From positions 124,001 to 188,000 of the forward strand of contig JACRCL010000012.1 in the NCBI GenBank assembly GCA_016219015.1: a stretch of 64,000 nucleotides of DNA. The letters are read 5' to 3'. The notes under the pieces were generated by a model. That model did no database searches, was not told the origin of the DNA, and saw only the letters and a program-made list of their open reading frames with translations. This stretch comes from Deltaproteobacteria bacterium. GTDB taxonomy: Bacteria; Desulfobacterota; GWC2-55-46. This document shows positions 2,280-55,724 of the stretch, piece after piece (the stretch's first letter is position 1; each line of letters begins with the position of its first letter). A program made the translations under genes and the position numbers.

Positions 2280-3344
2280 CTACTTCTCCGCCGGGTGCAG
2301 CCTTATAGTGACCGTAGTCCCTTCATTCTTGCGGCTCTGAAGCTCTATCTCTCCTCCGTGGTCCTGTATGATCCTGTACGTAATGGTAAGGCCGAGCCCG
2401 GCGCTGCCGAACTTCGAGGACTGGAAGGGGTTGAAGACCTTCCTTATCTCGTCCCCGCTTATGCCGCTGCCGGTGTCGATGACCCTTATGGCTATCGTCT
2501 GGTCGTGGGCGGGCGCGGTCTCCACCGTTATCTCGCCTTTCCGCTCGATGGCCTCGGCGGAGTTCTGGAGCACGTTAAAGAGAGCGGTCTTCAGGTTGCC
2601 GTAGTCCATGTTGACGGGCGGCGGGTCGGGCATGAGGTTCGTCTTTATCGTTATCTCCTTGCCCTCGCCCTCGATGAACTCCTTTACGTCCTTGACCGCT
2701 CCGAAGATGACATTGTTTATGTCGCCTTTGGCAAGGGTCGAAGTGAGTATCCTCTTGTACTCGTCTATCCTCAGGATGATCCTCTCGAGCCTCTCGACGG
2801 ACCTCAATATCCATTGGGCGTATTCCTTGTGCTGCGGGTCGGTCTCGCCCTCGAATAGCCTTCTGGCCATCCCGCCTATGGCGGTCAGCGGGTTCCTTAT
2901 CTCGTGGGCTATGCCGTCTACCATCTCGCCGAGGGCGGCGACCCGCTCGGCCTCCCTGAGCTTCGTCTGGAGCGCCCTCATCCTCAGCAGCGATTTCACC
3001 CGCGCCGCGACCTCCTGGAGGCTGTAGGGCTTGTTGATGTAGTCTTCGGCGCCGACCTCGAAGCCCATGACCTTGTCCTCTATGTCGGCCCTGCCCGTGA
3101 GCATTATGACCGGGATATACCTCGTCTCCTCGCTCGATTTAAGCCTCCTCAGGGCCTCGTAGCCGTCCATCTGGGGCATCATCACGTCCATTATTATAAG
3201 ATCGGGGTGGAGGTCCTTTACCTTCTGCAACGCCTCGATCCCGTTACGGGCCGTGCCCACCTCGTAGCCCTCGCGCTCGAGCTTGGCGGTAAGGAGGGCG
3301 AGGTTCCGCTCGTCGTCATCTACGGCAAGGATCCTCGGCTTCAT
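2280..3344 (-). CDS. Receiver-histidine kinase hybrid (receiver first)
   Basis: This is a soluble two-component protein with the receiver domain at the N-terminus. Receiver residues are D9-D11, the phospho-acceptor D53 (IIMDVMMPQMDGY), T83 and K105. A linker leads to an H-box with H147 (AHEIRNPL), an N-box (LFNVLQNSAEA, about 255-265), a G1 box (DTGSG, 290-294) and a G2 box (GSAGLGL, 313-319). It has no membrane segment or sensor domain, so its input is presumably phosphotransfer to D53 or a partner. Its start overlaps the stop of the upstream TPR lipoprotein gene as ATGA, so it is the last gene of the mla-like operon. No output regulator is encoded nearby. The family call is firm; the role in envelope lipid homeostasis is inferred from position only. 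Confidence 0.88.
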   Translation of the reverse strand: MKPRILAVDDDERNLALLTAKLEREGYEVGTARNGIEALQKVKDLHPDLIIMDVMMPQMDGYEALRRLKSSEETRYIPVIMLTGRADIEDKVMGFEVGAEDYINKPYSLQEVAARVKSLLRMRALQTKLREAERVAALGEMVDGIAHEIRNPLTAIGGMARRLFEGETDPQHKEYAQWILRSVERLERIILRIDEYKRILTSTLAKGDINNVIFGAVKDVKEFIEGEGKEITIKTNLMPDPPPVNMDYGNLKTALFNVLQNSAEAIERKGEITVETAPAHDQTIAIRVIDTGSGISGDEIRKVFNPFQSSKFGSAGLGLTITYRIIQDHGGEIELQSRKNEGTTVTIRLHPAEK

Positions 3345-4282
3345 CTGCCTTCATCCTGCTTCTTCACACCGTCCCTTATCCTCATATACCTCTCGGCCGT
3401 CTCTCTTTCGTTCAGCCCTTCGTATATGCCTATCATGGCATCTATGCTTTCAAGCGCGTCCTCGTAGAGCCCGCTGTTCAGGCTTACCTTGTAAGCCCGC
3501 TCGAATATCTTTAACGCTTCGTCCGTCCTACCGGCCTGCCTGTGGAGCACGGCCATCGACTCGAGGTCGAGGGCGATCTTCCCCGGGTCTCCGGCGGCGG
3601 CGTCTATCTCATAGGCTCCTTTGAAGGATTCAAGGGCCTCTTCAGGCTTGCCCGTGGCGTAAATCTCCCCGAGAGCCCTCAGGGAGTTCGCCTCTTCCGT
3701 CTTATCATTGGCGCGCCTGTTCGCCTCAAGCGCGTCTTTGAAGGCGTCTTCGGCCCCGATCCTGCCCGACTCCATCAGTATCAGGCCCTTCAGATTGAGC
3801 TTAGACCCTGACTTATAACCGACATGGCCGTCGATTGCAAGGGAATCCTCTATGCCCTTTAGCGCCCCGTCGTAGTCCTTTAACGCGTACTTTGCCATGG
3901 ACAACGTCGAGTACGCCTCGGACATATTTTTTCCGTCGCCCGCGTCATTTGCCGCGGATATGGCCTCTTCGGCATGGCCTTTCGCCTCAAGGGTCATCCC
4001 GAGCGCAAGTTCCGCCCTCGAGATATTTATGAGGTCCGCGGCCTCGCCGCGCCGGTTGTCGATCGACCGGTTGAGCCTGAGCGCCTCAATGAAGCTCCTG
4101 AGCGCCCCATCGGCGTCGCCCTTGCCGTAGGCCTCTACCCCCTGCGCCTCATAGGCAACGGCGCTCTCCACGGCCTGCGGCCTGTCCGTCCTTACGGCCT
4201 TCGGCGAGCAGCCAACAAGAAAGAAGGCCGTTACCGCGACTATACACAAAAATGTTTTAAGGCCTGAGTGCTTCACGCTCAC
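3341..4282 (-). CDS. TPR-repeat lipoprotein
   Basis: The protein has a lipoprotein signal ending in the lipobox FLVGC with C25 as the lipidated residue, followed by alanine-rich helical repeats of about 34-40 residues that read as tetratricopeptide repeats to the C-terminus. It is therefore probably periplasmic and membrane anchored, serving as a protein-protein scaffold. The start is GTG, overlapping the stop of the MlaD-like gene as GTGA, and its own stop overlaps the kinase start. In this operon it takes the place where other Mla systems have MlaC or MlaB; whether it replaces either is unknown. Confidence 0.8.
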   Translation of the reverse strand: MSVKHSGLKTFLCIVAVTAFFLVGCSPKAVRTDRPQAVESAVAYEAQGVEAYGKGDADGALRSFIEALRLNRSIDNRRGEAADLINISRAELALGMTLEAKGHAEEAISAANDAGDGKNMSEAYSTLSMAKYALKDYDGALKGIEDSLAIDGHVGYKSGSKLNLKGLILMESGRIGAEDAFKDALEANRRANDKTEEANSLRALGEIYATGKPEEALESFKGAYEIDAAAGDPGKIALDLESMAVLHRQAGRTDEALKIFERAYKVSLNSGLYEDALESIDAMIGIYEGLNERETAERYMRIRDGVKKQDEGR

Positions 4283-5280
4283 TTCCGGTTTCTCCTCATA
4301 AGGTAGCTGTCGAGCGGCACCAGCCCCGGGGCCTGCGGCTCCGGCACCATGAGCCTCACGGGCCAGCTCTCCTTTACGCCCTTTGTGACGGCCTTTGCCT
4401 GGGCCGCCGTCTCCTGGGTGTCCCTGAGTATCTTCTTTATGCGCGGCGCCTCGTTTGAAAGCGGCCCGGTAACGGCGGAGACGTCATCGAGTATCCGCTC
4501 TATCTTCTGCGCCGCCCGAGGCAGCCTCGTGGCCGCCTCGTCGGCATTCACAGCGATGCCCTCCACCCTCTTTATGACGGGCTCGATCCTGAGGCTTAAG
4601 GCCTCGACGTTCCTGATGGACCTGTTGGCCCCGTCGAGCGTCTCGTTCGTCCTCGCGTTCAAGTCTAGGACGAACCTGTTGGCGCTCCTTACGGTCCTGT
4701 CGATCTCTTTCCGGGTCTGCCTCATCTCGGCGGTCAAGTCCTTGATGTTGCCGAGCATGAGCTTTATGTCGCCCTCAGGGCTGTTCACGTAATGGATTAT
4801 CTCCTTAACTTCCTTAAGTATCGGCTTGGCCTCCTCGACAAGCTCCTCTATCCCGCCAGCCTTCTCGAACGGGACCGTGTCGTCGTCAGAGAGCACGCGC
4901 GCGCCGGAGGCCCCCATCGTCATCTCGATGTACGAGTCCCCTATGAAGCCTTCCTTGGCCAGCCGCGCCTTCGAGCCTTCCCTTATCCACTTCTCGTATT
5001 TCCTGTTTATCTCGGCGGTCACCTTGACCTTCGCGTCTTCCGTAAGCTCTATCCTCCTGACCCTTCCGACCTTGAAGCCCGACAGCTTCACCGGCATGCC
5101 TTCGACGAAGCCCGAGCCGCTCGCGGAGACGAATGAAATGCGGTACTTGCTCGTAAAGAGGTCCTTCTCCATGCCTATCCGGACCATGAGGATGATAATG
5201 CCGGCGATGGCCACAAGGACCATCGCGCCTATCTTTATCTCAAGGTTCCTGAACCTCGGGTCTTTTTCCTTAATCGGCAT
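4279..5280 (-). CDS. mlaD: MlaD/Mce-family lipid-binding protein
   Basis: MlaD proteins are inner-membrane anchored and form hexameric rings that pass phospholipids between the Mla permease and periplasmic partners. Here a short cytoplasmic start is followed by one membrane helix (about residues 17-36), an MCE domain (about 40-120, with the GMPVKLSGFKVGRV core) and a long helical region rich in coiled-coil heptads to about residue 300. At 333 residues it is longer than E. coli MlaD and closer to the long-tailed Mce forms. It overlaps the ATPase gene upstream by 11 bases and the lipoprotein gene downstream by 4, which supports one transcription unit. Confidence 0.88.
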   Translation of the reverse strand: MPIKEKDPRFRNLEIKIGAMVLVAIAGIIILMVRIGMEKDLFTSKYRISFVSASGSGFVEGMPVKLSGFKVGRVRRIELTEDAKVKVTAEINRKYEKWIREGSKARLAKEGFIGDSYIEMTMGASGARVLSDDDTVPFEKAGGIEELVEEAKPILKEVKEIIHYVNSPEGDIKLMLGNIKDLTAEMRQTRKEIDRTVRSANRFVLDLNARTNETLDGANRSIRNVEALSLRIEPVIKRVEGIAVNADEAATRLPRAAQKIERILDDVSAVTGPLSNEAPRIKKILRDTQETAAQAKAVTKGVKESWPVRLMVPEPQAPGLVPLDSYLMRRNRK

Positions 5281-5953
5281 TTCTCTCGACCAATCTCCGT
5301 CCTTCTATCCTTACCATGCGGCCGGGCCTGAAGAACGTCTCCTCATCCCCGGTATTGGATGTGAGTATGAGGAGTTTCCCTCCGGAGGCGTGGTACCCGA
5401 GTATGAATGACGCCACCCTCTCCTTCTCAAATTCCGTCAGCCCGTCCGTGATGTTCTCGCAGAGTATTATCTCCGGTTCGAGCGAGAGCGCCCTTGCGGC
5501 CGCGACTTCCTTTTTGGCGAAAAGCGGCAGGGGGCCCGGAAGGGCCCAGAGGTCCCCGGTAAAGCCCGCCTCCTCAAGAAGGAGCCGCGCCCTCTCCATG
5601 GAGGACGCGTAGGATATCTCCGTGTGGTACTGCATGGGCAGGGCCACGTTCTCTATGACCTTCAGGTTGCTTATGAGGGTGGTGTCCTGGAAGACGAACC
5701 CCATCCTCTTTCTTATCGACTTAAGCCCGTCCCCGCTTAAATTAGCGATGTCCTCCCCGAAGACCCGGACCACTCCGCCCTCGGGCCTTACAAGCCCGGC
5801 TATGAGCTTCAGCAGCAGGCTTTTGCCCGCGGACACGGGCGCGGTGACCAGGACCTTCTCGCCGCCGGAGAGGGCGAGGCTCGCGCCTTCAAATATCTTC
5901 CTGCCGTCGTCCGAGGAAGATGTCAGGTCTTTTATCTCGATAAGCGGGCCCAT
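5270..5953 (-). CDS. MlaF-like ABC ATPase, degenerate
   Basis: By position and fold this is the ATPase partner of the MlaE permease. The Q-loop (FVFQD, Q89) and the P-loop lysine/serine (AGKS, 42-45) remain. Other key positions deviate. The P-loop reads APVSAGKS, not GxxGxGKS. The LSGG signature is replaced by LPLF (142-145). The Walker B acidic pair is EN (165-166) instead of DE, so the catalytic glutamate is asparagine. The H-loop histidine is serine (LTSN, 197-200). These changes predict weak or no ATP hydrolysis, though the reading frame is intact and uses the same codon style as its neighbours. A separate active ATPase elsewhere, or a purely structural role, are alternatives. Confidence 0.85.
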   Translation of the reverse strand: MGPLIEIKDLTSSSDDGRKIFEGASLALSGGEKVLVTAPVSAGKSLLLKLIAGLVRPEGGVVRVFGEDIANLSGDGLKSIRKRMGFVFQDTTLISNLKVIENVALPMQYHTEISYASSMERARLLLEEAGFTGDLWALPGPLPLFAKKEVAAARALSLEPEIILCENITDGLTEFEKERVASFILGYHASGGKLLILTSNTGDEETFFRPGRMVRIEGRRLVERNAD

Positions 5954-5970: not shown

Positions 5971-6762
5971 TTACATGAAAAATAGGAAAGTTATAACGGC
6001 GTCGGTCACGAAAACGAGCCTCAAGCTCCCGATTACAGCCTTTGTCGTCTCTTGGGGGATCTGGGTGATGGATTTTTCAACGAGGAGGCCGTGGTATGAG
6101 CAGACAGTCCCTATTATAAATCCGAAGAGCGCGCTCTTCAAGAGGGAAACTCCCGCGTCCACGAAACCCATTGCCCCGAGCACGTTCGAGATATATGCGC
6201 CGAAGGCGATGTTCTTCCCGAAGCCGGCCAGTAGATACCCCCCGAGTATGGAGACGGCCTCGAAGTAGAACGTCAGCACGAATACGCTTACCGCCGTGCC
6301 CAGCACCCTCGGCATCACGAGGTAATGGAGCGGGTCTATGCCCATCATCTCGAGCGACCATACCTCCTTCGATACCTTCATGCTCCCGAGCTCGGAGGCT
6401 ATCGCCGTGCCGCTCCTCGCTATGACGATGACCGAGGCGAAGACCGGGCCCGCCTCCCTCACCACTACCCAGACGAGTATCTCCCCCATCAGCCCCTCGC
6501 CCCCGAACCTCGGCAGTATCGAGAGCGACTGGGTCACGACTATCAGCCCGAATATGAGCGCTATCCACGACACTATCGGGATGGCCTCGAAGCCCGTGAA
6601 GTATATCTGCTTCAAGAGCACGCTCACCACCGCGCTCCTGCCCCGGTTGGACCTGAATAACGCCGACCATACGGACGTGGTGGCGATATCGATCACGTTA
6701 AGGAGTATCTTCACGCGCTCCAACACGAGCCTTCCGAGGAAGTTAAGGAGCTTCATTGTCAC
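5971..6762 (-). CDS. mlaE: MlaE-family lipid ABC permease
   Basis: MlaE permeases sit in the inner membrane and form the transmembrane core of retrograde or anterograde phospholipid transport. The 263-residue protein has the family length, about five hydrophobic segments, and the conserved REAGPVFASVIVIARSGTAI-type stretch followed by ELGSMKVSKEVWSLEMMGIDP. A GTG start at 6762 is chosen because AGGA lies seven bases upstream; an ATG six bases inside is the alternative. It is the first gene of the five-gene operon, following a terminator-like hairpin after the upstream beta-barrel gene. Confidence 0.92.
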   Translation of the reverse strand: MTMKLLNFLGRLVLERVKILLNVIDIATTSVWSALFRSNRGRSAVVSVLLKQIYFTGFEAIPIVSWIALIFGLIVVTQSLSILPRFGGEGLMGEILVWVVVREAGPVFASVIVIARSGTAIASELGSMKVSKEVWSLEMMGIDPLHYLVMPRVLGTAVSVFVLTFYFEAVSILGGYLLAGFGKNIAFGAYISNVLGAMGFVDAGVSLLKSALFGFIIGTVCSYHGLLVEKSITQIPQETTKAVIGSLRLVFVTDAVITFLFFM

Positions 6763-6851: not shown

Positions 6852-7601
6852 TTAGAAGTCGGCCTTCAGGTTGACGAACGGGCCGCTTACGGTAATGTCA
6901 CCCTTGTCGTCATTGTTCTCGACGTGGAGCTTGAAGACCCTGTAGCCGCCGGAGATGAGGACAAACGGCGCGGGCTTTACGTTCACCCCGGCCTCCGCGT
7001 CAAAGATGTAGGCCTTGTTGCCGGCGTATATGCCGGTGACCTCCCCGCCCACGGAGAAGAGGAAGGGCAGCCCTACCTGACCGGCTATGCCAACGGTCGG
7101 TATGGGCAGGTTTATCTTCTGGGACTCGTCCACGGTGGAGGACTTGAGGCGCGCCTCCCCGTTGAAGTATTTGACCTCAAATATCACGCCCAGGCGGTTA
7201 TTGAGCATGTCTATTATGTCGTACTCGTACGCGAGCCTGTGGTAGTCGAGCTTCAGCTCGGAATCTACCGCCGTGGAGGCGGAGTAGGTCTGGCCCCCGA
7301 AGGTTATCGTCTGGGTTATCGTCTTGCTGCCGTCCCACTTGAGGGGCACGAAGGCGTACCTGAGCTTGTGGCTCCCGAGCTCGAGCGTGACCCGGCCCTC
7401 GAGGAAGCCCTTTTTGTCATCGAGCCCGAGGTCCTTGACCAGGTCTATGTCCGTGCCTATTACGCCGCCGCTTGTCGCCTTGACTTTGGAATCGAGGTTG
7501 GAGAACCAGTACCTCGCGTCCACGTCCACCAGCGCGTGGGCGGTGGAGCTTGCCAATATCGAAGCTAAAAAGACAATTACCGCTGCGACCAACTTCTTCA
7601 C
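6852..7601 (-). CDS. Predicted outer-membrane beta-barrel protein
   Basis: A clear signal peptide (about residues 1-23, ending TAHA) leads to alternating hydrophobic and polar strands and a terminal phenylalanine (NLKADF), the usual outer-membrane insertion signature. The strands near the C-terminus (FVLISGGYRVFKL, GPFVNLKADF) are typical of an 8- to 10-strand barrel. No enzyme motif is visible. It follows the LPP20-like gene after 31 bases and ends at a terminator. I do not recognise a named family, so only location is assigned. Confidence 0.75.
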   Translation of the reverse strand: MKKLVAAVIVFLASILASSTAHALVDVDARYWFSNLDSKVKATSGGVIGTDIDLVKDLGLDDKKGFLEGRVTLELGSHKLRYAFVPLKWDGSKTITQTITFGGQTYSASTAVDSELKLDYHRLAYEYDIIDMLNNRLGVIFEVKYFNGEARLKSSTVDESQKINLPIPTVGIAGQVGLPFLFSVGGEVTGIYAGNKAYIFDAEAGVNVKPAPFVLISGGYRVFKLHVENNDDKGDITVSGPFVNLKADF

Positions 7602-7632: not shown

Positions 7633-8481
7633 CTACTTCAAAACGAAAACGACCTTCGCGCCTTCGAGGAAGTTGCTCGCCTGGTTCGACGAGAATACCG
7701 CGCCCGCGTCCTCTGCGGGTATCTCCACGTCCGTGGATTTCACGACCCCGGCGGCCTTGACCACTATCGGGTTATTGGAGCCGCGCTCCCCGAGAAGGGC
7801 CCTGGCCTTGCCGATGTCATTCGTGTACTCGGCGGCGCCCCTTTCAACGAGTATGTCCTGCGCCACCTTCGCAGGGTCGTAGACGACCTCGCCGTTCTTC
7901 GTCAACACCCTGTTTATGAGCGCCGGCTTGAAGGGCTTTTCTCTCACGTCGAGTATGAGCCCGTCGAAGTCCTTCGGCTGGGCCGTCTCCGCCGGGGGCT
8001 GGTAGAGCGGCATCTGCTGCTGCGGCACCAGCGGTATGACCTGCGGGAGGAGCTGCCCTATGAGGCCGTTCGGCCCGGTCATGGGCACGGAGACGTAGAC
8101 GACCGCCATGCCGCTGAGTGGCTCGTAGGCCTCCCTTATGACCTGCGCGCCCTTGACGATGCCCTGGACAGTAGTCCTTACCACGTCAGACTCGGCGGCC
8201 GCGTTCACCACGGCGGTCTCGCCGCTTACCGAGACCCCGTCCACTATCTCCGAGACCTCGCGCAGCGCTACGACCTTTGCGGCCCTCAGCGCCAATATCC
8301 TCCTCTGGACGGCGGACAGGCTCTTGTCCGAGGGCGCGGCCCCCTCGCCCTTTACGACTATCGCGCCGGTCATGAACGCCTGCCTCGGGTCTGTGACGAC
8401 CTGGGGAAAGTCCTGCGGCCCCGCCCACGCGAAGACGGCCAAAAGGACCATGAAAAAGGGGACTAAAAAGACTCTTCTCAT
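7633..8481 (-). CDS. Secreted LPP20/FlgT-like protein
   Basis: The start at 8481 is chosen because GGAGGAG precedes it and a signal peptide follows at once (MRRVFLVPFF to AWAG). The frame stays open upstream, but that stretch is a family A repeat, not protein. The mature part carries the pattern ALRAAKVVALREVSEIVDGV, seen in LPP20 and FlgT N-terminal domains. A proline- and glutamine-rich linker and a C-terminal alpha/beta region ending VVFVLK follow. No lipobox is present. Its neighbours are three lipoproteins and a FlgT-like protein, so it is probably part of one periplasmic or surface assembly. Confidence 0.7.
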   Translation of the reverse strand: MRRVFLVPFFMVLLAVFAWAGPQDFPQVVTDPRQAFMTGAIVVKGEGAAPSDKSLSAVQRRILALRAAKVVALREVSEIVDGVSVSGETAVVNAAAESDVVRTTVQGIVKGAQVIREAYEPLSGMAVVYVSVPMTGPNGLIGQLLPQVIPLVPQQQMPLYQPPAETAQPKDFDGLILDVREKPFKPALINRVLTKNGEVVYDPAKVAQDILVERGAAEYTNDIGKARALLGERGSNNPIVVKAAGVVKSTDVEIPAEDAGAVFSSNQASNFLEGAKVVFVLK

Positions 8482-8531
8482 ATCTCCTCCTTGTTCCGAT
8501 TTAACAGGATGCAACATTACATGGATTGCAT

Positions 8532-8677
8532 AACAGGTTGCGGAAAAACTCAAAATCACATCAGGCTGCTCAAAATCGAGTCCGCGAGGCGTCGAGGAGC
8601 AAGGAATGAGACGTACTCTCCTTACGTTGTGACAAGACGAAGACAACAAAGCAGATGGACTTTTTGAGCAGCCGGTT
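8532..8677. repeat. Family A palindromic repeat (copy 1)
   Basis: The element has CAGGCTGCTCAAAAT and GGACTTTTTGAGCAGCC ends and the core CTCTCCTTACGTTGTGACAA. Its right end abuts the TAA stop of the SLH protein gene, and its left part lies before the next gene's binding site. It shares sequence with copies near 21.4, 29.1, 53.4 and 59.9 kb. Confidence 0.85.
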
Positions 8678-9887
8678 AATAAATATTTAGCCTCTGCCTC
8701 AACACCCTTACCGCCAGCACGGCCTCGGCCCCGTCGACGCTGTCGTTGGGCCTGAACTCGCCGGAGAGCTCGGTTTCCATGATGTTACGGGTCGTCACGT
8801 TCATTATCGCGTTATACCAGGCGGAAGTCGCCGGGACGTCCGGGAACGGCGACTTTTCATGGCCGAAGTAGGCCCCGGCCATCTTCTCGTCCCCGGTAAT
8901 CTTTATGAGTATGTCCTCGAGCACGAAGGCGAAGTCCTTCCTCGTGAGCGGCTCACCGGGCTTGAAGAGATACGCCCTCGTGGCCTCGTCGTAAACTGGC
9001 TCGAAACCCCTTACGCCCCACTTCATCATGGTGAGTATCTCTTCTTTGAATGGGTTCGACGCGACGTCCGCGGGGACGAACCCCGGCTTCATCCTGTCGA
9101 TCTCGGACTTTACGGGTATTCTCCCGGCGAAGAGCCTATCGATTTTCAGCTCATCGGCTATGAGCGCGGCCATGTCGGCCCTCTTTACCGAGCCCATCAG
9201 GGCTATCTCTTTGCCTACGTCGCCGAGCGTTATGCCGCCCATGGCGCTTACGATCTTATCGACCCTCTTCCATTCCCTGTCGGCGGGCGCGTTCCATTTG
9301 CCTTCCTTCTTCGCGTTCAGTACGTCGCTGAACCTGTCGCGCGCCAGCTGGAACTCGCGCGCCTCAATGTAGGCAAGCCCCATGAAGTACGAGGCCGCCT
9401 CCCTGCCGTCGTAGTAGATGAGCTTCCTGTCGTCGGTCTTTAGCTTCATGGCGGCCTTGTAATCGTCCTCGGCCTCCCCGAGCCAGCCCTTTATCCTGAG
9501 GGCCGTATAGACGCGCATCGATGCGAGCCTGTAGGCGAACTCGTCCTCCGGGGTCTCAGCGTTCTTGTACGCGGACTTCAGCTGGTCGAAGGACTTTTCA
9601 ACCTCGAGCTTCCTGTGGGCCTCGTCAGCGGTCAAGCCCGCCCTTGCCGCCTCCACCATGGCCATGCCGCCGTGCGCCGGGCCGAACGAGCTATCGCAGT
9701 ATATCGCCCTGTCGAACTTGGCCGCGGCGTCCTCGACCTTGTCCTGCTCAAGCAGGTCCATGCCTGCGAGGTAATGGTGCCGGGGGTTGTCCTCGGGGGA
9801 AGTGCACCTTGCCGACGGCCGGGCGCAGCCGTAAAAGGCCGCGGCCGCGAGCGCGAGCAAGACGAATGCCTTGAAAAGATTTCTCAT
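8676..9887 (-). CDS. Lipoprotein with TPR-like and SLH domains
   Basis: A lipobox (AAFYGC, C21) follows a short signal. The N-terminal half (about 40-200) is helical and repeat-like (YLAGMDLLEQDKVEDAAAKF). The C-terminal part (about 260-403) reads as S-layer-homology modules: MKPGFVPADV, PGEPLTRKDFAFVLEDIL, FPDVPATSAWYNAI and FRPNDSVDGAEAV. SLH modules usually bind cell-wall polymer or, in Gram-negatives, occur in outer-membrane proteins. The protein is likely outer-membrane anchored and may link membrane and peptidoglycan. It is upstream of the LPP20-like gene, with a family A repeat between. Confidence 0.8.
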   Translation of the reverse strand: MRNLFKAFVLLALAAAAFYGCARPSARCTSPEDNPRHHYLAGMDLLEQDKVEDAAAKFDRAIYCDSSFGPAHGGMAMVEAARAGLTADEAHRKLEVEKSFDQLKSAYKNAETPEDEFAYRLASMRVYTALRIKGWLGEAEDDYKAAMKLKTDDRKLIYYDGREAASYFMGLAYIEAREFQLARDRFSDVLNAKKEGKWNAPADREWKRVDKIVSAMGGITLGDVGKEIALMGSVKRADMAALIADELKIDRLFAGRIPVKSEIDRMKPGFVPADVASNPFKEEILTMMKWGVRGFEPVYDEATRAYLFKPGEPLTRKDFAFVLEDILIKITGDEKMAGAYFGHEKSPFPDVPATSAWYNAIMNVTTRNIMETELSGEFRPNDSVDGAEAVLAVRVLRQRLNIY

Positions 9888-9924
9888 CTGCGCCTCCGTT
9901 ATAGGACGGCGGAGTTGCCCGTCC

Positions 9925-10896
9925 TTATTTCAGAACCTTCACAACGTCGCCCGCCTGGAAGCCGACCCCGGATTTTATCGAGGCCTCGGAGACGTTCTCG
10001 CCCTGATGGGCCATAAGGACCGCCTCGCCTATCTGCTTTTCCCTCTTGCCTATCACCCTGCCGGTCTCCGGGTCCACAAGGTCAGCCCCCGGCCTGTAGA
10101 TGCCGAGCACCGTGCCCGGCTCGAGCCTGCTCTTCGTGCCGGCCCTTATTATGAGGCTGCCCGGCTCGACGAGCACTACCCTCGACTGGAAGGGGAGCGA
10201 GTTGAGCTTCTCCACCATCCTGGTCATCACCTTGGAAAGCGCGTCCCTTAGCGCCCCGTCGCGCAGGCCCGGGTCGGCCGTGGACCTCGAGCCGAGCCCA
10301 AGGGCGCCGCCGGTCTTCTTCCTGTACTCTCCCATGCCGGACTCCGACAGTAGGCTCTTGCCCGTGGCGATGTCCACGAGGGCGTAATCGACCTGGACCC
10401 TCGCTACGTGGGTCTTGCTCTGGACGATGAGCATGTCCGAGGACTCCTCTACCTCCGAATAGGCCGTCACGGCGCCGGATATCCTGAAGTCAACGGACTC
10501 GAACCCCTCGGCCGCGTCCTTCCTGCCCTTCTTTACGGCCCCGGTCTGCTGCAGCTCTATCATCCTCTCCTGCTGCTTCATCTCGTCTTTAGTGAGCACC
10601 ATGGGCTCAAGCCCGGACTGCTTCACTATGGTTCGGAGTATCTCGGTTGCGGCCTCGCCGACCCCGATGGTCTTGCTCGCGGTCTTGTTGTCGAACTGTA
10701 TGATGGCTATATTGTAGCTCGGGCCCCTGTACTGGGCCCCGGCCTCCTCGAGCCTCGTGGTCTGCCCGGTAATGCTTACGTCCTCCTTGACCGCCCCTGT
10801 CATGGTGGGCGAGCACCCGGACAGCAGATACGCCCCGGACATAAGAAAGACCGTGGCCGCGAGCCTTACGGCCCTGAAGTTCAACCCTTTGAACAT
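9925..10896 (-). CDS. CsgG-family outer-membrane lipoprotein
   Basis: CsgG-type lipoproteins form outer-membrane secretion or assembly complexes. The signal ends in LLSGC (C28). The core motif YNIAIIQFDNKTASKTIGVGEAATEILRT-like region (about 60-95) and the following VDFRISGAVTAYSEVEES and VQVDYALVDIATGKSL stretches match the CsgG domain. After it, about residues 235-323 form a small FlgT C-terminal-like domain (LIIRAGTKSRLEPGTVLGIY). No CsgA, B or F homologue is visible, so curli secretion is not implied. It lies 37 bases before the SLH lipoprotein gene and after the GNA1162-like gene. Confidence 0.85.
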   Translation of the reverse strand: MFKGLNFRAVRLAATVFLMSGAYLLSGCSPTMTGAVKEDVSITGQTTRLEEAGAQYRGPSYNIAIIQFDNKTASKTIGVGEAATEILRTIVKQSGLEPMVLTKDEMKQQERMIELQQTGAVKKGRKDAAEGFESVDFRISGAVTAYSEVEESSDMLIVQSKTHVARVQVDYALVDIATGKSLLSESGMGEYRKKTGGALGLGSRSTADPGLRDGALRDALSKVMTRMVEKLNSLPFQSRVVLVEPGSLIIRAGTKSRLEPGTVLGIYRPGADLVDPETGRVIGKREKQIGEAVLMAHQGENVSEASIKSGVGFQAGDVVKVLK

Positions 10897-10984
10897 ATTC
10901 CTCCTCCTTTTATGCCGGGTCTGAAGCAGAGCTTCGGCCCTTGGAAATCAGGAAATTATTTCTTATCCCCGTCCTCTATCTTCT

Positions 10985-11755
10985 TCACCTTGACCGGCGC
11001 GGCGCCTCCCTGGACGAGCCCGGCCCCGATGGGAAGCCCGTCATGACCCTGTCGAGCATCACGTCGGTCTCGGCCCTCAGGTGGACGCCCATGGCTTTCG
11101 TAAGTATCTTCTCCCCCAAAGAGATGAGCGCGGCGTCCCCGGCCTTCTCCGTGGCCGCGGCCCTCATCACGTGCCAGTCCTTGAGCCCCGGTATCTCCTC
11201 TATGCCGTTGATCGACTTATACGGCTCAATGCCTTCGTCTTTCACTTCTTTCAATATCGTTATCCCCGCGCCTGCCTTCCCTCCGGCGAGCGCGCTTTTT
11301 ACCCCGAGCCCCTCGGACCAGACGACCGCGCCCGTCCTCGTGTCCACGAGCTTGAACCCGGCCCTTACCTTCTTCACGTTGTACAGACCCGTGGTTATGT
11401 CGTCGAAGTTGAGCACGTAGCCGTAGAGGACCCCGTCCACCCCGAGCACTTCGCCGAGCTGTTGGGGGCTGGTCATCTCGAGCTGGGAGCCGAGCGTTAT
11501 CCCCATCTGGTCGAGGAGGACGCCGTCGACCTCTTTGATGGGCGTGGTCAGGTAATGCCTTTCCTGCATCCTTTTGAAGAACTCTTCCCTGATCATCCTG
11601 GGGCCGTCGACGTCGTTCGTGGCGTTATAGAATGGAAGCACCGCCACGGAGTAGACCGGGTTCGAATAGTTCGGGTAATACTTCCTCACCGGGACCGCGC
11701 ACGCGGTCAGTACGATAATCGCCGCGGCAAAGAAAAACAGTAGCGTCTTCCTCAT
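10985..11755 (-). CDS. GNA1162/DUF799-type lipoprotein
   Basis: A lipobox signal (IIVLTAC, C19) is followed by the YSVAVLPFYNATNDVDGPRMIREEFFKRM block and LGEVLGVDGVLYGYVLNFDD, typical of the GNA1162 (DUF799) family, whose fold resembles the TolB/CsgG N-terminal region. In other bacteria such genes neighbour CsgG-like and LPP20-like lipoproteins, as here. The C-terminal residues (REAPRRSR) look unnatural: shifting one frame near 11040 gives a lysine-rich end stopping at 10956. The tail may therefore reflect a frameshift. Confidence 0.82.
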   Translation of the reverse strand: MRKTLLFFFAAAIIVLTACAVPVRKYYPNYSNPVYSVAVLPFYNATNDVDGPRMIREEFFKRMQERHYLTTPIKEVDGVLLDQMGITLGSQLEMTSPQQLGEVLGVDGVLYGYVLNFDDITTGLYNVKKVRAGFKLVDTRTGAVVWSEGLGVKSALAGGKAGAGITILKEVKDEGIEPYKSINGIEEIPGLKDWHVMRAAATEKAGDAALISLGEKILTKAMGVHLRAETDVMLDRVMTGFPSGPGSSREAPRRSR

Positions 11756-11797
11756 CGGCTGGCCTCTCCTTCGATAGCTGCGTTAAAGCCTGCGTAG

Positions 11798-13075
11798 CTA
11801 CTGCGGGGTCTGCATTATAATCTCTATGGTGTTCTGGGTAGTTTCCATTACCTTGAAGGGAAGGCCGAGCCTTGAGACCTGGTCCGCTATGGCCTGCGCG
11901 CTGGACTTGGACTCTATCTCGAATACGGCCTCTCCGGGTACGAACTTCCTCTGGTATATGGCGGATATGCCCCTCACCCTGACCTTGAGGGCCTTCGTGA
12001 AATCCGTTATTTTCCTGTAATCGGTTATGTTCGTGATCCTCATGGTGATATAGCTGGGCCCGACCCACTTCGCGGTTATCTGCTCGATAAGCCTCTCCCC
12101 GGCCTCAGTCGCGGCCCTTGAGATCGCCTCCGTCCCGCCGGTAACCCCGGAGACGTTCCTCGATATGCCGTGCCCCTTCGAGGCCCCGAGTACGACCCCG
12201 TCGTCGACATTCACGGCCTGCGCGGTCATATCGGCTATGTAGGAGCTGACCGCGCTGCCAGGGGTCCTCGGGCCTTCGGTAGCCAGGGCCTTGCCGTATA
12301 CCACCACATCGGCGTTAATCTCCCTCCCTATCTGCCTGACGGCGGTCTGCGTAAGGTCCTCCACCTTGAACGCGTCCTGCACCTCGAAAGGCGCACTGAT
12401 GGAACCTGTCGCGACCCCTGACCTCGCCGCCATGATATCGACCACGTTGAAACCCTTTTTTCCGAAAAGCTCCTTCAAGGATGTCTCGGCGGAGGATATG
12501 TCGACCGTCTCGCCCCTGTACTCGCTCCTCCCCCACCACCAGAAGCTATAGTACCTATGCCCGATGTTCTTCTCGGATATCATGAAGAGCACCCTTGGCC
12601 TCTGGACCTTCCTCTGGAGGAGCCCCATTGCGCCGAGGTCGTCTTCGAGCGGCCCGACGCCGACTATCGCGCGGACCGTGACCTGGTAGAGGCCCTGCGC
12701 CTGCGCCTCCTTTATCACGGCATAGCTCCGTATATAGCCCTGTGTCCTCGTATAGACGTTGTCCGAAAGGACCTGGTAGTTCTCCACCATGGTCTCGGAT
12801 GATACGAGCGTCCCCACGGCCTGCTCCACGGCCTTCCTGAGGGCATCGCCTATGGCGGCGTCCCTCGCCGCGGCCGCGTTATCGGGGCTTATGGTGGCTG
12901 TCCCGGTGGCCTCGATCGTTTTGGACTCAGCGGGCTCATCGGCCATTGAAAGGCCCGCCAGCGGAAGGATAAGCATGGAAAAGACGAGACAGGCTTTGAA
13001 AAGACGGTTAAGGCTGTTGCGGAGACGAAGGCTTCTGTCCGGGCCTTTCCTTGTCATGAAACCGTCCCTTATCAT
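11798..13075 (-). CDS. FlgT-like secreted protein
   Basis: A signal anchor (about residues 28-45, ending SMADEPAES) is followed by a domain with the pattern AAARDAAIGDALRKAVEQAVG and VLSDNVYTRTQGYIRSYAVI, characteristic of FlgT N-terminal domains. A middle domain starts with VLFMISEKNIG and contains a TolB-like segment (INADVVVYGKALA), and an ATGERLIEQI-like helix precedes the final alpha/beta part. In Vibrio, FlgT builds the flagellar H-ring, but no flagellar genes are here, so a general envelope role with the adjacent CsgG-like lipoproteins is more likely. It is the first gene of the lipoprotein run. Confidence 0.78.
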   Translation of the reverse strand: MIRDGFMTRKGPDRSLRLRNSLNRLFKACLVFSMLILPLAGLSMADEPAESKTIEATGTATISPDNAAAARDAAIGDALRKAVEQAVGTLVSSETMVENYQVLSDNVYTRTQGYIRSYAVIKEAQAQGLYQVTVRAIVGVGPLEDDLGAMGLLQRKVQRPRVLFMISEKNIGHRYYSFWWWGRSEYRGETVDISSAETSLKELFGKKGFNVVDIMAARSGVATGSISAPFEVQDAFKVEDLTQTAVRQIGREINADVVVYGKALATEGPRTPGSAVSSYIADMTAQAVNVDDGVVLGASKGHGISRNVSGVTGGTEAISRAATEAGERLIEQITAKWVGPSYITMRITNITDYRKITDFTKALKVRVRGISAIYQRKFVPGEAVFEIESKSSAQAIADQVSRLGLPFKVMETTQNTIEIIMQTPQ

Positions 13076-50870: not shown

Positions 50871-51137
50871 AGGCTGCTGAAAAACTCAGAATCACATACA
50901 GGCTGCTCAAAAAGTGGAATCTCCCCGCAGCAAGCTGCGGGGAATCTTCGACACATAAGGAAAAGTTTTCGATTCGCTCGCTAAACCCCGCCAAAAGCAT
51001 GCGGGGAGTACGCTCGCTATGCGTGTACAAGATGCAAGGAGTCGAAAAATGAGGAATGAGACGTACTCATCTTGTACGCCGCAATGACGAATTTTGAAGA
51101 CGACGCCGCAGATTGGGCTTTTTCAGCAGCCTGTTAA
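50871..51137. repeat. Composite of family A (copy 6) with family B (copy 3) inside
   Basis: A family A element begins GGCTGCTGAAAAACTCAGAAT and ends GGGCTTTTTCAGCAGCC. Within it, 50917-51030 is a complete family B element, so B appears inserted into A. It fills the gap before the nucleotidyltransferase gene. Confidence 0.85.
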
Positions 51138-52192
51138 CCTGAAAGTATCCTCTCGAACTCAACGGCGCGCCTCTCCGAGCCATGCTCCGCGAGCGCGCGC
51201 ATTCGCGCCAGCGACGCCATTTTGGACCTTTCGGTTACTCCCATTGACATGGCGGCGATTATATCTTCGGTCGTATCGGCCACTATTATTTCTCTGCCCG
51301 GCTCGAAGAAGTCCTCTATCCCGGCCCACCGGTCGGTAAGTATCGGGCTCCCGCAGGCGGCGGCCTCGAAGAGCCTGCCCGAAGGGCACCAGCCCATATC
51401 GGCCATGGCCGCGCGGGTCACGTTCAGGGTAAAAAGGGCCGATGAATAGAACGCGGGGTGGTCTGCCGGAGACACGTGGCTCAGGTAATAGATGTTCTTT
51501 GTCCACGGGAAACCGTCGGGATAGAGCGACCCGCCTATGATGAACTTTTTGCCTTTGAGCCTTTTCGACGTCTCGATGAGAAGGGCGTTGAGCGCCGCCT
51601 GCCGGTCTTCGGCATAGGTGCCGAGGTAGGATAGATCGGCCCTATACGCGCCGGTCGGCTCCACGGGCCTGTGCGCCGCGGGGTCCACGCCGCCGTAAAG
51701 AGGCTCGACCCTTTTCGCGCCGAGCAGGTCTTTAAGCCCGCTTAACGCCCGCCCGCCCGTGTAGCTGAGGACAATGTCGAAGTCCCCGAGCCCCGAAGGC
51801 CCTATGTAACCCGTACCCGCGCCGGAACTCACGTTCTTGAGCGTTACCGGGGTATCGAGGTCATAGAACGCCTTGACCCCGGCCCCGGAAGAGAGGAGAA
51901 GGTCAGCCGCCTCTATCGCGTCCGGGCAGTACGACGTCACTATGCCCGCGTCCGCCTTCGACACCTCGGCCTTCGCCTCTTCAAAGACCTCGTCCCAGCA
52001 CCTGTAAAGGCGGAGCCTCACGCCGGGCGGTTCAGTCATGTCCCTGTGCGCCGCGTAGTATGGGACGTCCTTCTCAAAAAAGGTTATCTCGTGGCCGCGC
52101 TCAGACATGGACTTTAAGAGCCCCCTCCAGATGGTCGCGTGCCCGTTGCCCCATGACGAGCTGATGGTCAGGCCGAATATCGCTATCTTCAT
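51134..52192 (-). CDS. CgeB-like glycosyltransferase 1
   Basis: A GT-B fold protein of 352 residues: MKIAIFGLTISSSWGNGHA, then YLGTYAEDRQ, GSLYPDGFPW and the C-terminal CPSGRLFEAAACGSPILTDRWAGIEDFFEPGREI, typical of CgeB-type transferases. It is nearly paralogous to the next gene upstream. A family A repeat follows its stop. Confidence 0.87.
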   Translation of the reverse strand: MKIAIFGLTISSSWGNGHATIWRGLLKSMSERGHEITFFEKDVPYYAAHRDMTEPPGVRLRLYRCWDEVFEEAKAEVSKADAGIVTSYCPDAIEAADLLLSSGAGVKAFYDLDTPVTLKNVSSGAGTGYIGPSGLGDFDIVLSYTGGRALSGLKDLLGAKRVEPLYGGVDPAAHRPVEPTGAYRADLSYLGTYAEDRQAALNALLIETSKRLKGKKFIIGGSLYPDGFPWTKNIYYLSHVSPADHPAFYSSALFTLNVTRAAMADMGWCPSGRLFEAAACGSPILTDRWAGIEDFFEPGREIIVADTTEDIIAAMSMGVTERSKMASLARMRALAEHGSERRAVEFERILSG

Positions 52193-52204: not shown

Positions 52205-53350
52205 TCAGGGTTTAAGGACCGCGTGCTTTTGGTCCCGCTTATACGCTCTTTCGCGTCCGTTCATGCCTCTTCTTTTGAGCGCTTCTCTCATGTACCCTTC
52301 GAGCTGATCGACCCTGTGGGCCGCCGTGTGGCCGGATAAGACCTTCATGCGCGCCCGCTCGCCGATCTTCCTCCGCTCGTCTTCCGTTATTTCGTTAAGG
52401 TATCTGATGGTGTCACGGGGGCCGTTCGAGATGAGTATCTCCAACCCCGGCCTGAAGAGCCTGTCGAGCCCCTCCCAGTAATCGCTTATGATGGGGGTCC
52501 CGCATGAGGCGGCCTCGAAGAGCCTGACGCTCGGCGAATACCCGGTCCTTACCATATCGGCCCTTGTCACGTTGAAGGCGAACCTCACCGAGTTGTAAAA
52601 ATCCCTGTGCGCCGAAGGCGGGAGGTGCTCGACCCTCCTCACGTTATGCGGCCACCTGAGGGCCGCGGGGTAGAGCGCCCCGGCCACGATGAACCTCCTG
52701 TCCCCGAGCTTCCTGGCGGGATCGAGCATGAGTTTCTCGAGTATCGGCTGGCGGTCGTCGCTGTATGTGCCCAGATACCCGATATCCCAGTCCTTCTTCT
52801 TTTTGCACGGGTAGTAGACCTCCGGGTCCGCCGAGCAGTAAAGGGGCCTCGACATCGGGGAGCCCCACCTCTTTTCTATGTACTCGGTTATCGGCCCGCC
52901 CGTGAACGAAAGGTACAGGTCGTAGCGCCGTATAAGCTCGGGCGAGATGTATTCGCAGTCACCCCTTTTTATCTTCGCCATGGTCACGGGGGTGTCGATG
53001 TCGTAGAAGGCCCGCGCCCCGTTCGCCGTATCGAGGACCCAGCGCCCGAGGGCGCAGCCCTCGGGCACGTAGGAGCCGACCATCACGAACGACGCCTCCC
53101 TCACATCGTGCGAAAAGCGTTCCTTCAGGTCATTAAGGTCACGGTACAATTCGGCGTGGCCGTGACTCGCGCACGGCCACAATAGGTCCCTGTTCGCCCT
53201 ATACCAGGGCGTGTCGCGCTCCAGGAAAAGGACGTCGTGCCCCCTCTTTGAAAGCTCGCGCACGAGGCTCCTGTACGTGGTGGCGTGGCCGTTGCCCCAT
53301 GAGGACGTTATCGACAGCCCGAAGATTACTATCTTTAGCGGCGGGGTCAT
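52205..53350 (-). CDS. CgeB-like glycosyltransferase 2
   Basis: At 381 residues, a close paralogue of transferase 1: FGLSITSSWGNGHATTYRSL, DIDTPVTMAKI, YLGTYSDDRQPIL, SVRLFEAASCGTPIISDYWEGLDRLFRPG. The acceptor is unknown. It lies 12 bases upstream of transferase 1 in the operon. Confidence 0.87.
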   Translation of the reverse strand: MTPPLKIVIFGLSITSSWGNGHATTYRSLVRELSKRGHDVLFLERDTPWYRANRDLLWPCASHGHAELYRDLNDLKERFSHDVREASFVMVGSYVPEGCALGRWVLDTANGARAFYDIDTPVTMAKIKRGDCEYISPELIRRYDLYLSFTGGPITEYIEKRWGSPMSRPLYCSADPEVYYPCKKKKDWDIGYLGTYSDDRQPILEKLMLDPARKLGDRRFIVAGALYPAALRWPHNVRRVEHLPPSAHRDFYNSVRFAFNVTRADMVRTGYSPSVRLFEAASCGTPIISDYWEGLDRLFRPGLEILISNGPRDTIRYLNEITEDERRKIGERARMKVLSGHTAAHRVDQLEGYMREALKRRGMNGRERAYKRDQKHAVLKP

Positions 53351-53371: not shown

Positions 53372-53523
53372 CAGGTTGCTAAAAAACTCAAAATCATTAA
53401 GGCTGCTCAAAAAGCTCCAGATGCGAGGCCCCGTTGAAATAGGGGAGCGAGGAATGAGACGCACTCTCCTTACGTTGTGACAAGACGAAGACAACGAAGC
53501 AGATGGACTTTTTCAGCAGCCTG
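53372..53523. repeat. Family A palindromic repeat (copy 7)
   Basis: GGTTGCTAAAAAACTCAAAAT to GGACTTTTTCAGCAGCC with the CTCTCCTTACGTTGTGACAA core. Its right end supplies the last residues and the TGA stop of the preceding transferase gene. Confidence 0.85.
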
Positions 53524-54613
53524 TCGGGACATTTGCGCGGAACTCCGTTGAAAAAAGCCGATCAAGCGCCTTTGCCCTGTGTGCGTAAGTGTGCGAGCCG
53601 AGAATCCTCTCGAAAGCGGCCCTACCGATGGACGCCGCCTCTCCGGGGGTAAGCCTCTTGAGGCACTCCGCCACCCCGTGCCCGTCCTTTGCGACGAGCA
53701 CCTCCTTGCCGGGCTTGAGGAAGAGCTCTATGCCTTCCCATTCGTCGGTTATTATGCAGGCCCCTGCCCCGGCCGCCTCGAATATCCTCGTGGGCGGCGA
53801 AAAGCCGTACCTTGCCATCGATTCCCTGTTCACGTTCAATACCGCCCTTGCGCTGCAGTTGAAGGCGTTATGGTCGCGGGTGTAGACATGGCCGATGTAC
53901 TTGACGTTCGGCAGCCCCGTGCCGTCCCAGCCGTTCCCGCCGAGGATGAAACCGCGGTCGGGAGATCCGGCGGCGGCGTTGAAGAAGAACTCCCATACGC
54001 GGGACTCCCTGTCCGGCAGGCGGTTTCCTATGAAGCCGAGGTCGCACCTGTAACGCTCTTCGGCCGCAACCGGATAATGCGAGTCCGGGTCGAGCGCGTT
54101 GTATATGGGGACGCACCCCTTCGCGCCTAACATATCGTATGCGTCGATGACGGGCCTGCCGCCGCCGTACGTCAGGATGAGGTCGTACTCGGGGATGAGC
54201 TTCAGGAACGGGTCGTTGCCGTTGCCATTGACCCTGTCGAGGGTGGCGGGCGCGTCCACGTCCCAGAATACAGCCTTCACACCCGGCCTCCTGAGCTCAA
54301 GGACAGCCTCTTCCAAAAATTCATCGAATACCCCTACCCCGCTCGCCTTTATTATTATGTCGGCCTCGGACGCCTCTTTCAATGCCTGGAGGACCCCGCC
54401 CCTGTTCGCCTCAAAGACCCTGACTTTGGCCCACGACGGGCTTAAAATGTCCCTGTGCATCTGCCTGTCGTAAGCGTCCGGCTCGAAGAACGTTATCTCG
54501 TAGCCGAGCGAATCGAGGGCGCGCGTTATGCCCCTGTAGTACGTTGCCGCCCCGTTCCAGTAAGCCGACACGAGGCTCGATCCGAAAAAAGACACCCTGA
54601 TACGCTGCTTCAT
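53513..54613 (-). CDS. CgeB-like glycosyltransferase 3
   Basis: A 366-residue member, more divergent: FGSSLVSAYWNGAATYYRGI, FWDVDAPATLDRV, DLGFIGNRLPDRESRVW, PTRIFEAAGAGACIITDEWEGIELFLKPG. Its last codons (TGC and TGA) lie inside the family A repeat, so that element may have cut a longer C-terminus. Confidence 0.85.
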   Translation of the reverse strand: MKQRIRVSFFGSSLVSAYWNGAATYYRGITRALDSLGYEITFFEPDAYDRQMHRDILSPSWAKVRVFEANRGGVLQALKEASEADIIIKASGVGVFDEFLEEAVLELRRPGVKAVFWDVDAPATLDRVNGNGNDPFLKLIPEYDLILTYGGGRPVIDAYDMLGAKGCVPIYNALDPDSHYPVAAEERYRCDLGFIGNRLPDRESRVWEFFFNAAAGSPDRGFILGGNGWDGTGLPNVKYIGHVYTRDHNAFNCSARAVLNVNRESMARYGFSPPTRIFEAAGAGACIITDEWEGIELFLKPGKEVLVAKDGHGVAECLKRLTPGEAASIGRAAFERILGSHTYAHRAKALDRLFSTEFRANVPTGC

Positions 54614-54638: not shown

Positions 54639-55724
54639 TTAAAGCCCTGCGTAGACGGCCATAAGCTCATCCACCCTGTGGCCGCACGTATGCCTTTTTA
54701 GTATCGTATCGAGGCCGTGAGCGGAAAGCTCCTGCCTCAATCCCCCGTCGTTTAAAAGTTCCTTCAAACGCTCTTTCATCTCGGCCCCGCTCCTCGCCAC
54801 GATGAAGTCTTTGCCCGGCGTAAAGAGGCCTTCGGAGTCCTCCCACGGCGCGGACACAAGCGGGATGCCGCACGCGAGCGCCTCGAAGACCCTTATCGTC
54901 GGTATGCCCGGCAGGGCCCCGGCGTACGGCCTTCTCGGCACGTGCACCGTGAACTTGTACCTGGCGAAGATATGCGGCACAGCGTAGTTCGGCAGCCATC
55001 CGCCGTACTCCATGCCCGATTCCCTCAGCGTCTCGATGGCGCTCGCCGGGTACCTTACCCCGTGTACTCGCGTCTTAAGGCCGAGCGCTCTGGCGGGTCC
55101 GTGGAGGAACTCGCGGAGCTCGGACGTCCTCTCACCGTCCCCCCAGTTCCCTATCCAGACGAGGTCCCCGGCAAGGATCAGGCCCGGAAAAGGGCGGAAT
55201 AGACGCACGTCGGCGGCCTCGTGCCAGACCCATGCCCTCGCGGCCCAGCCCCTTGAGATATATATCTCCCTTATGACCTCGCCGAACGCGAGGACGCCAT
55301 CGTAATTGGAAAGGTCGTACCGCTCCATCTCCTCCGGCTTTGTGATTGACCGGTGGTGGGTGTCGTGGAAAAGGAGCTTGAAGCCCCCGGCCGACCTCCT
55401 GTATTCCCCTATCTTTCTGACAAGCTCGTGGTCGTTCCACTCGTGGACTATGACGAGGTCGGCCCCGTCGAGCGCCTCTCCGAGGTCGAGTCCGTCCAGG
55501 TCGTAGCGTACGCTTTCGAGCCAGGGACAGACCGATAAGAGCCTCCGTACGGGCGACATGCCGTAATCGGCCAGGAGGTTTTTAAGGCTCCACGCCCCCC
55601 TCGGTTCATACACCGTGACGACGTGCCCGCGCGACAGAAGCTCCGATACTACACCTCTTAAGAAGTGGGCGTTCCCGTGGTTCCAGTCCGAAAGGACGGA
55701 GTGGCAGAAGATCACAACGCGCAT
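54639..55724 (-). CDS. CgeB-like glycosyltransferase 4
   Basis: A 361-residue member: FCHSVLSDWNHGNAHFLRGV, LLFHDTHHRSIT, VWIGNWGDGERTSELREF, TIRVFEALACGIPLVSAPWEDSEGLFTPG. It overlaps the GT4 gene upstream by 13 bases and is 25 bases before transferase 3. Confidence 0.86.
   Translation of the reverse strand: MRVVIFCHSVLSDWNHGNAHFLRGVVSELLSRGHVVTVYEPRGAWSLKNLLADYGMSPVRRLLSVCPWLESVRYDLDGLDLGEALDGADLVIVHEWNDHELVRKIGEYRRSAGGFKLLFHDTHHRSITKPEEMERYDLSNYDGVLAFGEVIREIYISRGWAARAWVWHEAADVRLFRPFPGLILAGDLVWIGNWGDGERTSELREFLHGPARALGLKTRVHGVRYPASAIETLRESGMEYGGWLPNYAVPHIFARYKFTVHVPRRPYAGALPGIPTIRVFEALACGIPLVSAPWEDSEGLFTPGKDFIVARSGAEMKERLKELLNDGGLRQELSAHGLDTILKRHTCGHRVDELMAVYAGL

Follow-up and report, generated by a model that had tools for sequence, protein, structure and literature searches.

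The only motor subunit encoded in an mla-like operon of the window (the whole 64,000-nucleotide stretch of DNA analyzed here) has lost every catalytic motif and has yet been preserved together with its permease. By its motifs this subunit, a degenerate MlaF-like ABC domain designated NBD2, is predicted to be catalytically dead. The motif loss and its conservation, the selection acting on the gene, its co-inheritance with the MlaE-type permease MlaE2, the fold of the protein and the concentration of its conserved residues are directly supported by the present analysis. On balance, we consider it somewhat probable that NBD2 is a pseudo-ATPase that clamps or gates a lipid conduit formed by MlaE and MlaD, without ATP hydrolysis; its docking on MlaE2, the lack of ATPase activity, lipid as the substrate, and passive transport with its direction are inferred.

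A degenerate MlaF-like domain in an mla-like operon

The initial annotation of this DNA had described an intact gene within an overlapping mla-like operon, and the gene is indeed one open frame, which overlaps mlaD by 11 bases (5270-5280) and begins 17 bases after mlaE, while mlaD overlaps the TPR lipoprotein gene by 4 bases (Table 1). Reading of the frame also confirmed each of the motif changes recorded there: the signature position is occupied by LPLF instead of LSGG; Walker B reads ILCEN, with Glu in place of Asp and Asn in place of the catalytic Glu (DE to EN); the H-loop reads LTSN, with Ser in place of the switch His; and the P-loop glycines are altered. In the Walker A sequence, APVSAGKS, the first two P-loop glycines are lost and GKS is retained, that is, the P-loop lysine and serine survive. 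The window copy additionally retains the Q-loop glutamine (VFQD), and its D-loop reads GLT. NBD2 lacks the C-terminal tail of 25-30 residues that canonical MlaF carries; in the alignment the NBD2 rows stop near residue 224, and the canonical MlaF rows extend to about residue 248.

Table 1. Features of the mla-like operon and its neighborhood in the window
Feature	Position	Strand	Basis or remark
Response regulator-histidine kinase fusion	2280..3344	(-)	Pfam; closes the conserved block
TPR lipoprotein	3341..4282	(-)	Pfam TPR_12; lipobox LVGC by eye
MlaD2, MlaD-type MCE protein	4279..5280	(-)	Pfam MlaD, 56.5 bits vs 25.1
NBD2, degenerate MlaF-like ABC domain	5270..5953	(-)	Single intact ORF, 227 aa
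MlaE2, MlaE-type permease, partner of NBD2	5971..6762	(-)	Pfam MlaE, 209.3 bits vs cut-off of 22.5
Predicted outer-membrane beta-barrel	6852..7601	(-)	Mostly directly upstream of MlaE2
Weak LPP20-like	7633-8472	(-)	Pfam
TPR+SLH	8676-9887	(-)	Pfam
CsgG-like	9925-10896	(-)	Pfam, just below cut-off
GNA1162-like	10985-11755	(-)	Pfam
FlgT_N-like	11798-13075	(-)	Pfam

Pfam ABC_tran recognizes NBD2 at 52 bits, above its cut-off of 25, and the NCBIfam MlaF model NF008809 scores it at 84.6 bits where 441 are required. The AlphaFold2 model (mean pLDDT 92.1, pTM 0.88) predicts with confidence that NBD2 folds as MlaF, and the best Foldseek matches of the model are the E. coli MlaF chains, with a TM-score of 0.93 to chain 6xbd_I of MlaFEDB. 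Its motifs, its family score and its missing tail place NBD2 outside the MlaF family, and its operon places it with MlaE and MlaD. By likeness of working the gene set may thus be regarded as an MlaFED module, with NBD2 standing outside the MlaF family by membership.

Of the partners, MlaE2 scores below the cut-off of TIGR00056 (158 vs 212.2 bits) and MlaD2 below that of the equivalog TIGR04430 (62.2 vs 135 bits). MlaD2 is composed of an N-terminal membrane segment (by eye), an MCE domain and a long C-terminal region, and its position directly after NBD2 is conserved. The TPR lipoprotein gene follows MlaD2 in the class loci with a sufficiently long contig and in four of the six loci found outside the class. 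The order MlaE2-NBD2-MlaD2-TPR is constant in the retrieved loci, usually within a longer block of envelope genes, and no MlaB or MlaC gene was seen in the window operon. The genes for MlaE2 and NBD2, nearly adjacent in other genomes, are separated by 3.6 kb in G051 (locus L080, 4318-7929, flipped orientation) and by about 1 kb in G057.

The predicted beta-barrel was modeled by AlphaFold with a pLDDT of 88.7 and ten long strands, and no Pfam family scored above cut-off. Identification of the barrel by fold was not upheld, the matches being to generic outer-membrane barrels only, weak and at low identity, and a strict tie of the barrel to the trio of MlaE2, NBD2 and MlaD2 was likewise rejected because the barrel is present in 49 of 63 class genomes, many of them without the trio. 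The barrel is duplicated in G056, G057 and G439. At the other end of the block, where its position is conserved, the gene of the response regulator-kinase fusion overlaps the TPR lipoprotein gene by 4 bases; by synteny, the fusion is retained where the trio is absent. Whether this fusion is a member of the trio's system is uncertain, as is the membership of the envelope genes upstream of the trio (7633..13075), much of which persists in the majority of the examined genomes that lack the trio.

Conservation of the motif losses, selection and graded relatives outside the class

The sample comprised 59 genomes belonging to the same family, order and class, with the window's own counted among them. 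NBD2 was detected in 28 of these genomes, in two of which (G017 and G033) a contig end cuts the gene; exactly the same 28 also gave MlaE2, and the remaining 31 gave neither gene. The initial annotation had proposed aligning NBD2 with its relatives, and an alignment of 28 degenerate rows with 39 rows of canonical MlaF drawn from the class, in which 27 degenerate rows reach most motif columns, revealed that the changes are conserved: none of the 27 degenerate rows retains the signature glycines, the catalytic Glu or the switch His, and all 39 canonical rows retain them. The remaining motif residues, each present in 39 of 39 canonical rows, are partly kept in the degenerate rows, the Walker A Lys in 24 of 27, the Walker B Asp in 7 of 27 and the Q-loop Gln in 6 of 28. 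Since the losses are common to every relative that reaches the site, they are more than chance, and a sequencing error or frameshift was rejected, as independent assemblies show the same losses.

The position of the catalytic Glu is occupied in the 27 degenerate rows by N (15), R (6), G (2), K (2), S (1) or A (1), and that of the switch His by A, S, V, F, T or G. This variety weighs against the idea that NBD2 is a slow but real ATPase using altered residues, which we regard as distinctly improbable: some relatives do have intact or nearly intact P-loops (GPLGSGKA in G051, GPHGSGKS in G049), and the E. coli MlaF mutant E170Q is described as retaining about 20% of activity (PMC7784689), but no single substitute residue is conserved at either the Glu or the His position.

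A class-wide search of 63 genomes brought the total with NBD2 to 30 of 63 by adding G437 and G440, both with a degenerate copy; MlaE2 of G439 is close to a contig end, beyond which NBD2 would lie, and G438 (62% complete) gave no match in this search. A single-protein search of the genome contigs returned one close relative, the other 12 matches being 22-36% identical. Much of the envelope block persists in seven genomes that lack the trio (G006, G015, G021, G007, G016, G027 and G040), whose fetched stretches contain none of the trio genes at E 1e-5; G006, G015, G027 and G040 still carry the TPR gene, which was not found in the fetched stretches of G021, G007 and G016. In G032 and G039 the barrel, the kinase and nadB were the sole matches. 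Because the trio is missing as a whole while flanking genes persist, MlaE2, NBD2 and MlaD2 behave as one unit. In a tree of 26 degenerate and 14 canonical rows a branch with 100/100 support separates off the degenerate NBDs, and an equally supported branch splits 28 MlaE2 from 14 MlaE1 rows.

The dN/dS ratio of NBD2 was 0.06-0.18 across eight close pairs and that of canonical MlaF 0.04-0.09 across seven, with synonymous sites near saturation in some pairs (G035-G038, G038-G042); a ninth NBD2 pair (G010-G017) was left out as too close. NBD2 has diverged beyond its own permease in 276 of 276 genome pairs, and canonical MlaF in 44 of 276. Taken together, the ratios and the divergence relative to the permease indicate that NBD2 is constrained, yet relaxed in comparison with a working motor. 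A functionless, decaying remnant would be expected to evolve faster than its permease, as NBD2 does; this explanation is nevertheless scarcely tenable given that the frames are intact in all full-length relatives, that dN/dS is at most 0.18, that the domain has one origin at class depth and that the residues SNLK-EN-LP-YH are invariant, and a decaying pseudogene was rejected on dN/dS and depth. With class-wide loss, purifying selection and co-inheritance with the permease all pointing the same way, the proposal in the initial annotation of a dead or slow ATPase on a lipid permease is strongly supported.

The conserved residues of NBD2 are unevenly distributed. Of its 38 columns conserved in at least 90% of 26 rows, 21 fall in residues 86-142 (57 of 224 residues; hypergeometric p 1.4e-5), whereas the corresponding stretch of canonical MlaF holds 28 of 130 conserved columns and is not enriched (p 0.96; 35 rows). 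Residues 86-142 start shortly ahead of the Q-loop and reach the signature position, contain the invariant residues named above and presumably form the region where the coupling helix docks, as in ABC transporters generally. Conservation has thus moved off the ATP site and onto the part of the domain expected to hold the permease. On the permease side, all 28 MlaE2 rows retain the residues equivalent to Arg97, Glu98 and Lys205 of E. coli MlaE, and 25 of 28 retain the one equivalent to Asp250. Conservation of these charged residues is no proof of transport, since alanine at the four positions is reported to leave growth of E. coli unaffected (PMC7790496). The coupling helix carries an acidic residue (E or D) in 39 of 39 MlaE1 rows, and N, K or R at that position in 26 of 28 MlaE2 rows.

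A search with an NBD2 profile of a phylum sample of 395 genomes, drawn from a larger number, identified six genomes outside the class that match at E of 1e-44 or better. LSGG and the switch His are absent from all six NBDs, a count that is biased towards degenerate copies because the profile was built from degenerate domains. Beyond these two losses the six are graded: G088 and G217 have LSLG and keep DE, G113 and G250 have LSLE with DQ, and G120 and G335 (two of six) have lost the Walker A Lys as well. The permease is of the MlaE2 type in all five loci whose contig reaches it (all but G217), with four permeases scoring 174-232 bits to MlaE2 vs 113-134 to MlaE1 and the 68-residue fragment of G250 scoring 64 vs 38 bits. 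Raw scores put the NBDs of four of the six (G088, G217, G113 and G250) nearer to canonical MlaF than to the degenerate clade of the class, and in the tree, which is unrooted and has some weak branches, these four fall on the same side of the branch as the canonical rows. Loss of the Walker A Lys falls on separate branches in G035/G038/G042 and in G120/G335, and the residue was therefore lost at least twice.

This series fits stepwise decay of the NBD on an MlaE2-type permease. Tentatively, and as a possibility rather than an expectation, we propose that the class and its scattered relatives in the phylum turned an Mla-type ABC transporter into a lipid conduit independent of ATP hydrolysis, in which the motor would have become a structural gate through loss of the signature and His, then of Glu, and then, in some lines, of Lys. 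Part of the wider NBD2 family may hydrolyze ATP, since the catalytic Glu survives in two of the six out-of-class NBDs.

Proposed role of NBD2 and relation to known systems

In the clamp or gate reading, NBD2 would still bind the cytoplasmic face of MlaE2, but it would be unable to form ATP-sandwich sites or to hydrolyze ATP. Most likely it would act as a structural element keeping MlaE2 and the MlaD2 ring ready to accept lipid, and lipid would pass between the inner membrane and periplasmic or outer-membrane partners (the TPR lipoprotein and the beta-barrel), its flow driven by equilibrium or by the pull of these partners and not by an ATP power stroke. The regulatory or energy-independent exchange role suggested in the initial annotation would fit this evidence. 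Docking of NBD2 on MlaE2 is an assumption, since the handshake tail is absent; in E. coli the C-terminal tail of MlaF is described as forming a handshake needed for assembly (PMC7367683). According to in vitro work summarized in a review, phospholipid transfer from MlaD to MlaC occurs without ATP hydrolysis, and hydrolysis prevents transfer (PMC10212509); PqiA and LetA, the inner-membrane partners of other MCE proteins, are described as having no ATPase domain (PMC12436622). Against the proposed role, the E. coli MlaF mutation E170Q is reported to reduce ATPase activity by about 80% and to impair growth (PMC7784689), so a crippled motor is not tolerated by the canonical Mla system.

The Walker A Lys is missing from three of the 27 class rows and from two of the six out-of-class rows, which makes ATP binding look dispensable; its presence in the remaining 24 class rows means that nucleotide binding may still matter in most class members. 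NBD2 could accordingly be a nucleotide sensor, its P-loop binding ATP or ADP and opening or closing the permease without hydrolysis. We consider this rather unlikely: although the same 24 rows keep the last P-loop Gly along with the Lys, and seven class rows also retain the Walker B Asp and the D-loop Asp, the signature motif required for the sandwich is absent from every row, and the operon persists in G035, G038 and G042, and separately in G120 and G335, where the Lys is lost.

Degenerate nucleotide-binding motifs conserved in evolution occur likewise in heterodimeric ABC exporters such as TM287/288 and MsRv1273c/72c. TAP and CFTR are also of the heterodimeric ABC type with one degenerate, conserved site, and known degenerate ABC motors usually retain one working site per dimer. 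Heterodimeric exporters pair a degenerate with a consensus site, whereas the window operon encodes no canonical partner and none was found in the genome G004, discussed below. A further close system is E. coli MlaFEDB (PDB 6XBD, 6XGY, 6XGZ), which shares the fold of NBD2, the MlaE and MlaD partners and the counterparts of R97, E98 and K205; compared with E. coli MlaF, to which it is 25% identical, NBD2 lacks LSGG, the catalytic Glu, the switch His and the handshake tail. PqiABC and LetAB resemble the window set in that an MCE protein is combined with an inner-membrane protein described as ATPase-free (PMC12436622), but the inner-membrane protein of the window set is an MlaE-family ABC permease, and an ABC-fold subunit has been retained. 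Mycobacterial Mce1/MceG (PMC10517005) and Brucella MpcEFDA (PMC12436622) share the MlaE/YrbE permease, the MCE protein and lipid transport; unlike the state predicted for NBD2, the ATPase of Mce1/MceG is active and the Brucella transporter is described as well conserved (MpcF).

A search of the open-licence literature yielded no description of a degenerate MlaF, which may exist elsewhere, and no match for pseudoenzyme ABC ATPases in lipid transport. The direction and the energy source of Mla transport are debated. A natural Mla complex free of hydrolysis would offer a test of what the MlaE-MlaD pathway does alone, and with the graded relatives one could ask which steps of the ATP cycle are required for lipid transport. 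If the class has indeed turned its transporter into such a conduit, an ATPase-less Mla may constitute a natural inter-membrane lipid route, possibly outward, and a way by which motor-driven MCE systems evolved into motor-free ones.

A second, canonical Mla set

A search for a second MlaF, also proposed in the initial annotation, uncovered one other, fully canonical MlaF-MlaE-MlaD set in the genome of the window (G000, 96.6% complete), which has exactly two MlaE and two MlaD matches, in the window and on contig C24. The C24 set comprises the same three families as the window set, in the order MlaE-MlaF-MlaD; its ATPase of 248 aa differs from NBD2 in having all motifs intact (GRSGEGKS, LSGG, FDEPTTGLD, ITHD), and the two sets are about 30% identical in MlaF and about 32% in MlaE. 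Neither MlaC nor MlaA is among the seven C24 ORFs scanned.

With a canonical MlaF encoded in the same genome, and 24 genomes retrieved with both systems complete enough for comparison, NBD2 could form a heterodimer with MlaF in which one site is dead and the other alive, as in heterodimeric ABC exporters, or MlaE2 could borrow a shared ATPase in the way that mycobacterial Mce permeases are described as sharing MceG (PMC10517005). Against this arrangement stands G004 (97% complete, 1% contamination, about 110 contigs), which has NBD2, MlaE2 and MlaD2, only one MlaE and one MlaD, and no canonical MlaF, the best-scoring match to the canonical query being 33% identical. Canonical MlaF was not found in G017 (79% complete) or G033 (85% complete) either. 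G004 weakens the case for an obligatory pairing of NBD2 with canonical MlaF, which thus seems unlikely, and a mixed dimer would have no complete composite site, since NBD2 lacks a Walker B and a signature of its own. Overall we judge such sharing of a motor improbable; MlaE2 may borrow another ABC subunit.

A third Mla-like set (L142, L143, L144), its ATPase motifs all intact, is present in one genus, in G035, G038 and G042, the same genomes whose NBD2 has lost the Walker A lysine. Elsewhere in the window, four consecutive ORFs on the same strand (51134-52192, 52205-53350, 53513-54613 and 54639-55724) appear by eye to encode related glycosyltransferases.
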